This document shows positions 41,508-44,632 of a stretch of 64,000 nt of DNA, in pieces. This DNA comes from Candidatus Coprovivens excrementavium. Lineage in GTDB: Bacteria > Bacillota_I > Bacilli_A > RF39 > UBA660. The DNA is taken from NCBI GenBank assembly GCA_944363975.1, contig CALVVU010000002.1, positions 186,001-250,000 on the forward strand. Reading direction: 5' to 3'. Position 1 is the first letter of the stretch; the number at the start of each line of letters is the position of its first letter. The notes below the pieces were generated by a model. The model worked only from the letters and a program-made list of their open reading frames with translations. It did no database searches and was not told the DNA's origin. The translations under genes were made by a program, and so were the position numbers.

Positions 41508-42340
41508 ATGCCAACAATTAAAGAAATAGAATATCGTGGTCATGACACTCAAGATACTACGATAAAAGTAACATCTGATTTATTAGATTTTTAGAAAATA
41601 CAACATTTAATGAAGAAATACCTTCCAAAAGAAGTTTAAAAAGTATTAAACAAGAAAGTTTTTCTTTTTATAATCGTCATTACTCACTGCACGATATTCC
41701 TTTTACATGTGAAAAGAGCGTAGGTCCTTTTAAAATCGAATTAAATGGTCTTCTAAATCCTTTTTCATTACCAATATCAAAAGTAAAAATAAACGATTCT
41801 TTCTATGGTCTTTTAAAAGAGACTCTAATAATCGACGAACAAATTAAACTAGTATATCGTGGAATAAGTCTTTCTAAAAACATTACTGATTTAACATCTT
41901 TAGCTTATACCCACGAAATAACTCATACTCAAGTAAACAACGTTTGTGGTTTAATAAAATATTATTATAATAGTGAAATACTAAGCATCTTTAATGAATT
42001 ATTAGCAGCATACGAAAAACAAGATGGTGAAAGACTTCTTCAAATTCACGATCGTCATCGCCTAGAAGAACTAAGAGAAAGTATTAGTGTTTTAAAAGAC
42101 TTACAATCAATTGATGAAGATATAATTGAAGCAAGCTGCTATTGTGCCTCAACTTTAAAAGCTTATTATTTGTTTTCAATGTATTACTATGGTGATCGAT
42201 TAACAAGAGATTCAATTATTAATCAAATTCAAAAAACTTTTAATCACCAAAACACTTTAGAAGAGAATTTAAGTGAATTAGGAGTGCCTAGTTCAGAACT
42301 TCCAGATTCTACTTATTTAAAAAAATATTTACATAGATAG
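41508..42340 (+). pseudogene. Frameshifted HEITH-motif metallopeptidase-like gene (copy 1)
   Basis: The ATG at 41508 has a ribosome binding site (AGGAAGTGA) but its frame stops after 28 codons, at TAG 41592-41594. The -1 frame then stays open from the same point to TAG at 42338-42340. The joined product would be about 277 residues. Adding one T to the run of five T at 41588-41592 restores one frame. The second part has YTHEITHTQV, then YYYNSEILSIFNELL, matching YVHEITHSQL and FYHAEILSMFNELF in the next gene; the ends also match (KYLHR and KYFNR). It is thus a broken, or slippage-controlled, tandem paralogue. A sequencing error in a homopolymer is also possible. Confidence 0.75.
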
Positions 42341-42351
42341 GGGGAAAAATA

Positions 42352-43200
42352 ATGACTTTAACTAAAGATAAAGAAATAATTTTAAGAGGATATAATCCAT
42401 ATCCCCAAATATATAAACCATCACCTAAATTAGTTTCACTTGTTACTAAATTAAATAAATTAGATATTGCTAAAAAACGTAATCGAGTACATACTATGGA
42501 ATTAGACGAAGCTCTTTACGATGCTTCAGCTTTCTTAGATCGTTACTATAACCTTCATAATATTCCTTTAATCACGAATGATACTGGAGCAACTGTCGTA
42601 ACTAATATTCATCCTTATGATTTACCTCTCTATGAAGGAGAAGAAACTGATAATATCTTCTCAAGTTCAATAATCGAAGATATAATTTCTACTCCTAAAC
42701 CAAGTATTAATTATATAGGTATCAATCTTGCTCCAACCATTACTGAACAAACATCTACTTCATATGTTCACGAAATAACTCATTCTCAATTAGATCATCA
42801 AATAGGAGTAATAAAGGAGTTTTATCATGCTGAAATTCTAAGTATGTTTAATGAGTTATTTCATGCTTCTATCTTAGATTCAGGAGAAAATATTTTGAGA
42901 CTAAATGATTCGCGTCGTCTTTATGAAATGAAAATTTTGACTCAAAGCCTTTTACATCCATCTGCTTTTACTCGTGAAGATTTACTACTTGATAGTCAAT
43001 ATCTTATCTCTGACTTAAAAGCTTACAATTTATTTATCAAATTCTACTATGGTAATGAAACTTTAAAAGAAGAAATAATTTCTGATATTCAGTCTGTATT
43101 TGATGGTTACATGACAGTTGAAGACTTATTAGATAAATATAATATTACCTTAGCAAATAGTATTGATAATAAAAAATTACTAAAATACTTTAATAGATAG
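42352..43200 (+). CDS. Putative zinc metallopeptidase, HEITH family (copy 2, intact)
   Basis: 282 residues. The central HEITHSQLDHQ (His about 143 and 147) is an HExxH zinc motif, and FNEL about 28 residues later offers a third acidic ligand, as in gluzincins. There is no signal peptide or membrane helix. The C-terminal third is helical and ends in KYFNR. The gene has a GGGGAA ribosome binding site and lies 11 bases after a frameshifted relative; a third, deleted relative follows. No known family was recognised, so the enzyme function rests on the motif. Confidence 0.7.
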   Translation: MTLTKDKEIILRGYNPYPQIYKPSPKLVSLVTKLNKLDIAKKRNRVHTMELDEALYDASAFLDRYYNLHNIPLITNDTGATVVTNIHPYDLPLYEGEETDNIFSSSIIEDIISTPKPSINYIGINLAPTITEQTSTSYVHEITHSQLDHQIGVIKEFYHAEILSMFNELFHASILDSGENILRLNDSRRLYEMKILTQSLLHPSAFTREDLLLDSQYLISDLKAYNLFIKFYYGNETLKEEIISDIQSVFDGYMTVEDLLDKYNITLANSIDNKKLLKYFNR

Positions 43201-43208
43201 GAATATAT

Positions 43209-43476
43209 ATGAATATAATAGATGAAGAAATATTATTAAATATCATCACTACGATGAATCACCTGAATTAAATAATCAATCTCATCAATAAAAAAAGCCT
43301 ATCAATTATTCTTAGAATACTATTATAGCCAACTATCTCTAAGAAAATATATTATCAATTCTATTCAAAATATGTTTGACGGTAATCTGGCTCTTCAAGA
43401 ATTATTAGATGAACTTGCGATTCCTTATCAAGATAATTCTAATAATCATCGTTTAGTAAAATATTTTAGTCGTTAA
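43209..43476 (+). pseudogene. Remnant of a third HEITH-family copy
   Basis: Starts with an ATG at 43209, then IIDEEILL, and in the next frame KYHHYDESPEL, which matches EIILRGYNPYP..PSPKL at the start of copy 2. The middle, including the HEITH motif, is missing. From about 43292 the frame reads KAYQLFLEYYYSQLSLRKYI and then NMFDGNLALQELLDEL, ending in KYFSR, matching the last 60 residues of copy 2. So it has a frameshift and an internal deletion of about 200 codons, and is dead. Confidence 0.75.
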
Positions 43477-43533
43477 AATTGACAATTATCTCTAAATAAT
43501 TTATGATTAACTTATTAGAGGTAGGTGATGTAT

Positions 43534-43602
43534 ATGATAAAAAATAAATTATTTAATTTAAATCTTTATCGTAAGTCATCCCTATCTAAACAATTAAATT
43601 AG
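43534..43602 (+). CDS. Possible 22-residue leader peptide upstream of rsgA
   Basis: A short frame with a strong AGGTAGGTGATG site 3-10 bases before its ATG. The product is basic (MIKNKLF... and ...YRKSSLSKQLN). It ends 16 bases before a pair of overlapping hairpins and 80 bases before rsgA. Its good ribosome binding site suggests that it is translated, perhaps as a regulatory leader, but it could also be the leftover start of a decayed gene. Confidence 0.35.
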   Translation: MIKNKLFNLNLYRKSSLSKQLN

Positions 43603-43617
43603 ATATCTTTTATATAG

Positions 43618-43653
43618 ACTTACAATAAAGTAAGTTCTTTTTATTTAGAACTT
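43618..43653 (+). promoter_or_regulatory. Two overlapping, mutually exclusive hairpins before rsgA
   Basis: Hairpin 1: ACTTAC (43618-43623) with GTAAGT (43630-43635), followed by TCTTTTTATTT, so it looks like a terminator. Hairpin 2: AAGTTCT (43632-43638) with AGAACTT (43647-43653). They share 43632-43635, so only one can form. This is the layout of an attenuator. Confidence 0.5.
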
Positions 43654-43681
43654 TTATTATAAGAAAGAAAGGTGAAATAAA

Positions 43682-44632
43682 ATAACTAAAAGATATCAAA
43701 ATATCTCTAAAAAAAATAATATATCTTATTCAAACTATCAAGATGATTATGGTATTGTAATAGAAACTTCATCTAATAAAGCATCTATTCTATATCAAGA
43801 TAGTATAAAAGAATATCCATTATCTAAAACACTACCATATATATGTAATAAAATTCTATATCCTGGTGATAAAGTAATTATTTCTAATCAAGAAATATCA
43901 GGTATTATTAAAAGAAAAAATATTTTAAGTCGTCAAAAAAAAGATTCTACTAGTATAAAAGAAATAACTACTAATAAAATAATAGCTACTAATATTGATT
44001 TAGCTATAATAGTCGTATCTGCTCAAGAACCTGATCTTCATCCTAAATTTATTGATCGTTATATAATCCTCCTAAAATCAAATAATATTCCCTTTATAAT
44101 ATGTTTAAATAAAGCTGATTTACTTACTAAAAAAGAGAGTAATATAATATCTATATACCATAATTTAAATATTCCTCTTATTAAGACATCTACTTATACT
44201 AAAGAAGGGATCCAAGACTTACTAAATATTATAAAAAATAAACAAACTATTTTAGTAGGTCATAGTGGAGTAGGTAAGTCATCACTTATTAATACTCTCT
44301 TAAATAACCATCTAACTAAAATAGGTAATATAAATCATCATAAAGGTCGTCATACTACAACTAAATCTAAATACTATAAGATAGATAACTATACAGGTAT
44401 TATTGATACCCCGGGTATTCGTTCCTTAGATTTATCTACTTATAATAAAGATGATATTAAAAATTACTTCTTAGAATTTATTCCCTATAATAGCTTATGT
44501 AAATATCCAAACTGTCTTCATCAAAACGAACCAATATCATCATGTAAAATAAAACAACTAGTTACTCAAGGGTTCATATCTAAAGAAAGATATGAAAGCT
44601 ATCTTAAAATAATTGATGAACTTTCATCGTAA
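43682..44632 (+). CDS. rsgA: Ribosome small-subunit biogenesis GTPase RsgA, apparent AUA start
   Basis: 316 codons. RsgA (YloQ/YjeQ) is a circularly permuted GTPase that helps finish the 30S subunit. Seen: N-terminal OB-type domain, G4 LNKAD, G1 VGHSGVGKSSLIN, the KGRHTTT switch, G3 DTPGIRSLDL, and the zinc part with CKYPNCLH and CKIK. The frame opens after TGA at 43673 and contains no ATG, GTG or TTG before the core domains; indeed no Met codon at all was seen in the frame. AGAAAGGTG ends 7 bases before ATA at 43682, exactly where a start is expected. The protein is otherwise complete, so AUA start, or an ATG-to-ATA change, is likely. Confidence 0.88.
   Translation: MTKRYQNISKKNNISYSNYQDDYGIVIETSSNKASILYQDSIKEYPLSKTLPYICNKILYPGDKVIISNQEISGIIKRKNILSRQKKDSTSIKEITTNKIIATNIDLAIIVVSAQEPDLHPKFIDRYIILLKSNNIPFIICLNKADLLTKKESNIISIYHNLNIPLIKTSTYTKEGIQDLLNIIKNKQTILVGHSGVGKSSLINTLLNNHLTKIGNINHHKGRHTTTKSKYYKIDNYTGIIDTPGIRSLDLSTYNKDDIKNYFLEFIPYNSLCKYPNCLHQNEPISSCKIKQLVTQGFISKERYESYLKIIDELSS

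Follow-up and report, generated by a model that had tools for sequence, protein, structure and literature searches.

RsgA is a GTPase of 30S-subunit maturation. In the window, the 64,000-nucleotide stretch of DNA that we analyzed, a full-length RsgA is encoded by a frame that contains no in-frame ATG, GTG or TTG codon. This frame, at positions 43676-44632 (all features given here lie on the forward strand), opens after a TGA at 43673-43675 and stays free of stop codons up to the TAA at 44630-44632. This raises the question of where translation of such a gene would begin, and of how it might be controlled.

Members of the RsgA family are recognized by circularly permuted GTPase motifs (NKxD, GxxGVGKSS and DTPG) together with a C-terminal zinc site, and the frame keeps all of them, as NKAD, GHSGVGKSS, DTPG and a Cys/His zinc site, along with GRHTTT. 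It scores 197 bits against the TIGR00157 profile (cut-off 100) and 167 bits against PF03193 (cut-off 30). The predicted structure (mean pLDDT 73) finds its best fold matches among RsgA structures, the top one being 7boi (E 1e-22), and the protein shares the OB fold, the permuted GTPase and the zinc site with the RsgA/YjeQ/YloQ family, to which its top sequence matches also belong. Frame and profile scores thus agree with a first-pass annotation of this DNA, which had described an intact rsgA of 316 codons with all motifs and no ATG, GTG or TTG. That annotation had also taken the gene as the only rsgA, a view that we rejected, since a canonical rsgA lies elsewhere in the same genome (G000:C3:194487; 277 aa, normal ATG) and every other genome that carries the window gene has one as well. 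The window gene (43682-44632, 316 codons from ATA to TAA) is therefore a second RsgA paralogue, which we call rsgA2, and not the housekeeping rsgA; it differs from the known family in being an additional copy beside the canonical gene and in having an AUA start. Its product, whose N-terminal basic tail is shorter than in orthologues from other genera, would presumably act on the 30S subunit.

We place the start of rsgA2 at the ATA at 43682-43684. The putative Shine-Dalgarno sequence AGAAAGGTGA (43666-43675) has its 3' end 6-7 bases 5' of this codon, and its predicted anti-Shine-Dalgarno duplex of -13.5 kcal/mol compares with a median near -9.6 kcal/mol for 53 window genes, which bears out the good ribosome binding site noted in the first-pass annotation. 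In the relatives that carry rsgA2 the duplex is -9.9 to -10.0 kcal/mol. A near-cognate start should have no canonical in-frame start at the homologous N-terminus, a strong and properly spaced Shine-Dalgarno sequence, and a codon conserved between species; the window genome (G000) shows the first two of these features, and ATA is found in 4/4 species of the genus that carry rsgA2. An early NTG start is present in all of the 59 window frames except rsgA2 and one frameshifted gene, and we discarded a genome-wide habit of AUA starts because the other window genes use NTG starts. At window frequencies, a stretch of 315 codons would be free of Met with a chance of about 0.009, and free of ATG, GTG and TTG with a chance of about 0.002. 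The lack of start codons is thus unremarkable alone in a genome of this size, and what is remarkable is an ATA conserved in four species. A Met-free protein was likewise set aside as a feature in its own right, given that chance of about 0.009 per gene and an orthologue, in G007, with two Met.

The rsgA2 gene is present in 4 of the 15 genomes of the genus that we searched and absent from 11. The orthologues in three other species (G002, G005 and G007) are 55-58% identical to that of the window genome and have ATA at the homologous position, behind GAAAGGTGATTAAA, with the same Shine-Dalgarno sequence. The stretch GAAAGGTGATTAAAATA is invariant across these three relatives, whereas silent sites differ by 42-54%. 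All 14 orthologues from other genera have ATG at the aligned position; these proteins open with MPHYNAYDSF, MPHYNAYESF or close variants, and most have an ordinary Shine-Dalgarno sequence. The simplest account would be a change from ATG to ATA in the ancestor of the four carrier species, kept since then. The first-pass annotation had called for this alignment and had named relatives with ATG together with reads showing an error among the findings that would overturn its reading; the relatives with ATG all belong to other genera, and a sequencing error in a single genome is excluded because the three same-genus orthologues all carry ATA, so that four separate draft genomes agree. We conclude that this comparison gives good support to a genuine AUA start of rsgA2.

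An infC gene with an AUU, AUC or AUA start, through which IF3 regulates its own synthesis, is found in E. coli, Streptomyces and S. aureus. Within the genus, infC starts with ATA in 12 of 15 species and with TTG in the remaining 3; in other genera, ATA or ATC takes this place in 13 genomes. These starts were read from the alignment and the position of the Shine-Dalgarno sequence. AUA initiation therefore has a precedent in this genome. In the window genome itself, infC (L066, G000:C3 about 184600) has its ATA behind GGAGGTG. Given the ATA or ATC starts of infC in other genera of the family, gene finders will probably misplace the start of this gene.

To our knowledge, few conserved AUA starts have been documented in bacteria. 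The rsgA2 gene joins infC, the classic example, in a small class of genes with near-cognate starts, and its start is likewise of the non-AUG type that IF3 discriminates against; in contrast to infC, it encodes a paralogue of a 30S assembly GTPase rather than IF3, and both canonical rsgA and the outgroup rsgA2 genes use ATG. In S. aureus, AUA starts with extended Shine-Dalgarno sequences are described for infC, ccpN and citZ, and reporters with the ccpN or citZ AUA start reach about 10% of the output of AUG in poor medium (PMC13009471). Non-canonical starts are repressed by IF3 (PMC5472188). The genes ccpN (AUA) and cvfC1 (AUU) of S. aureus and sigR (GTC) of Streptomyces resemble rsgA2 in a conserved non-canonical start that keeps output low, and ccpN and cvfC1 also in a strong Shine-Dalgarno sequence (PMC13009471, PMC5472188). 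Unlike rsgA2, these genes encode regulators or small proteins, and the available text of the two sources reports no leader attenuator for them. Our search of the open-access literature found neither an rsgA paired with a non-canonical start codon nor leader-peptide attenuation of rsgA.

The first-pass annotation had stopped at the start codon, and overlooked a conserved leader upstream that has the form of a leader-ORF attenuator. A putative promoter, TTGACA-17-TATGAT (43479-43507), lies about 200 bases upstream of rsgA2 and reads TTGACA-17-TACGAT in the three relatives, so that TTGACA-17-TAYGAT describes all four carriers. In each it is followed by a leader ORF that is 20-22 codons long and has a Shine-Dalgarno sequence. 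In the window this ORF (43534-43602) encodes MIKNKLFNLNLYRKSSLSKQLN and has its own Shine-Dalgarno sequence, AGGTGAT; an alternative in-frame ATG stands at 43528. The leader peptide is weakly conserved among the four species. In all of them, we also observed an ATA among the first five leader codons.

Comparison of the species reveals, beside the leader ORF, three overlapping predicted pairings that are mutually exclusive. In the anti-antiterminator hairpin (43519-43587, -20.8 kcal/mol) the Shine-Dalgarno region pairs with the later leader ORF, enclosing the leader Shine-Dalgarno sequence, the leader start and the antiterminator strand. The antiterminator joins a stretch inside the leader ORF, CTTTATCGTAAGTC (43564-43577), to 43617-43630, which is the 5' arm and loop of the terminator hairpin GACTTACAATAAAGTAAGTT with its T-rich tail (43617-43646). 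None of 1000 shuffles was as stable as the anti-antiterminator of the window genome, and this hairpin has several changed pairs across species; in G005 it is ordinary (57/1000 shuffles as stable). For the antiterminator, which has one mismatch in the window genome, 12/2000, 0/2000, 0/2000 and 5/2000 shuffles were as stable in the four species. An exact pattern search for the terminator hairpin sequence located a single copy per genome in all four carriers, and no match in the 11 remaining genomes of the genus. A standard terminator scan of the leader did not call this AT-rich terminator; such a terminator is typical of the genome, whose terminators it resembles in its stem (mostly 7-11 pairs, with 2-3 G-C). 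We found no such leader in the 14 outgroups with ATG, and an Rfam search with the leader gave no match. In the window genome only, the terminator 3' arm can form an alternative hairpin (43631-43655, AAGTTC...GAACTT) with T after it, which might act as a second terminator.

Computed folds suggest how these pairings might be selected. When leader codons 1-2 were treated as covered by a ribosome, the best fold was the antiterminator in 4/4 species. The leader without a ribosome folds into the anti-antiterminator and terminator in 3/4, the free leader of G005 already favoring the antiterminator, and placing the ribosome on the leader stop codon makes the terminator the preferred fold in just 2/4. 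A similar scheme has been demonstrated experimentally for vmlR, which has a leader ORF in the first stem, three exclusive structures and an intrinsic terminator ahead of the gene (PMC9226507). The rsgA2 leader has the same anti-antiterminator, antiterminator and terminator layout as such vmlR-type attenuators (PMC9226507), but its ORF has 20-22 codons rather than 3, its Shine-Dalgarno sequence sits inside the stem, and the gene controlled would be a ribosome-assembly GTPase instead of an antibiotic-resistance ABCF protein.

Other readings of the locus have to be weighed. Translation might instead start nine bases upstream of the ATA, at the GTG contained in AAAGGTG. ATA would then be the fourth codon, and the indel in G000 would reflect either a mistake in the assembly or a loss that happened recently. 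This GTG is open and in frame in G002, G005 and G007, one homopolymer error in G000 could mask an in-frame GTG, and such indel errors are conceivable given the likely one-base homopolymer frameshift in a neighboring G000 gene (41509-42337). However, no usable Shine-Dalgarno sequence precedes the GTG in the three relatives, where the duplex is +0.8 to +1.6; that of G000 is just -4.4 and directly abuts the GTG, compared with -9.9 to -13.5 for the ATA across species. The GTG itself belongs to the Shine-Dalgarno sequence, in G000 it does not share the frame of the gene, and the outgroup ATG aligns with the ATA and not with it, so we regard a GTG start as improbable. To the reading that rsgA2 is decaying, with start and leader as remnants and the frame open by chance, we give very little credence. 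Decayed metallopeptidase-like copies do lie nearby (41509-42337, frameshifted; 43209-43478, broken), rsgA2 is missing from 11 of 15 genus members, and its loss would be tolerable because a canonical rsgA exists. Set against this are 316 codons without a stop, catalytic and zinc motifs that are all retained, dN/dS values below 1 (0.19 for G002-G005, 0.45-0.51 for G000 versus its relatives), and an ATA and leader kept in four species at protein identities down to 55%.

It is also possible, although we think it unlikely, that the AUA start is real and the leader is no switch, its hairpins being the terminator of the upstream gene beside a chance short ORF, with rsgA2 expressed at a low, constant level. 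The weak terminator, the poorly conserved leader peptide and the deviating fold of G005 would fit this explanation. Yet the promoter stands upstream of the hairpins, just 3' of the stop of the upstream gene (a broken remnant in G000), and the leader is missing from the 14 outgroups. Moreover, in all four species, with partly compensating changes, the leader-ORF stretch can pair not only with the terminator arm (0-12/2000 shuffles) but also with the leader Shine-Dalgarno region.

We return to rsgA2 as a gene that would be controlled at both its leader and its start codon. Judging from the sequences, it is probably a low-level paralogue inducible by ribosome stress, in which leader translation controls transcription and an IF3-sensitive AUA start controls translation. 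Termination, induction by stalled ribosomes and IF3 sensitivity are steps that we infer. RNA polymerase would start about 200 bases upstream and first make the leader coding for a peptide of 20-22 residues. If this leader were free, or quickly read to its end, the first hairpin would sequester the antiterminator strand, the terminator would form and rsgA2 would be off; if a ribosome stalled on the first leader codons, that hairpin would be blocked, the antiterminator would form and polymerase would read into rsgA2. At the gene itself, the AUA with its strong Shine-Dalgarno sequence would permit low-level initiation that IF3 would normally reject, and scarce IF3 or weak IF3 proofreading would raise synthesis. 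The net outcome would be a spare RsgA, made when translation fails.

More tentatively, and with somewhat less than even confidence, we suggest that rsgA2 senses translation status twice, by leader attenuation and by an IF3-surveyed AUA start like that of infC, and thereby provides RsgA activity under a shortage of IF3 or of functional 30S. Control of RsgA by IF3 would have a mechanistic logic and a possible purpose because both proteins can release RbfA from the 30S subunit (PMC9032327), and feedback through IF3, as the first-pass annotation had proposed, is plausible. If true, this dual control would couple 30S assembly directly to initiation fidelity and to ribosome stalling, and would offer a clean test system. 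For annotation, gene finders limited to ATG, GTG and TTG would miss rsgA2 entirely in the window genome and probably mis-start it in the relatives.

The region upstream of rsgA2 holds several copies of a metallopeptidase-like gene. That at 42352-43200 is intact, and a broken remnant of the same family (43209-43478) lies just upstream of the rsgA2 promoter. The copy at 41509-42337, with a HEITH motif, has a one-base frameshift at a T run near 41590 that may be real or a homopolymer error; its 41579-42337 portion was considered as a second AUA gene and rejected, being part of this frameshifted gene, which begins at the ATG at 41509.
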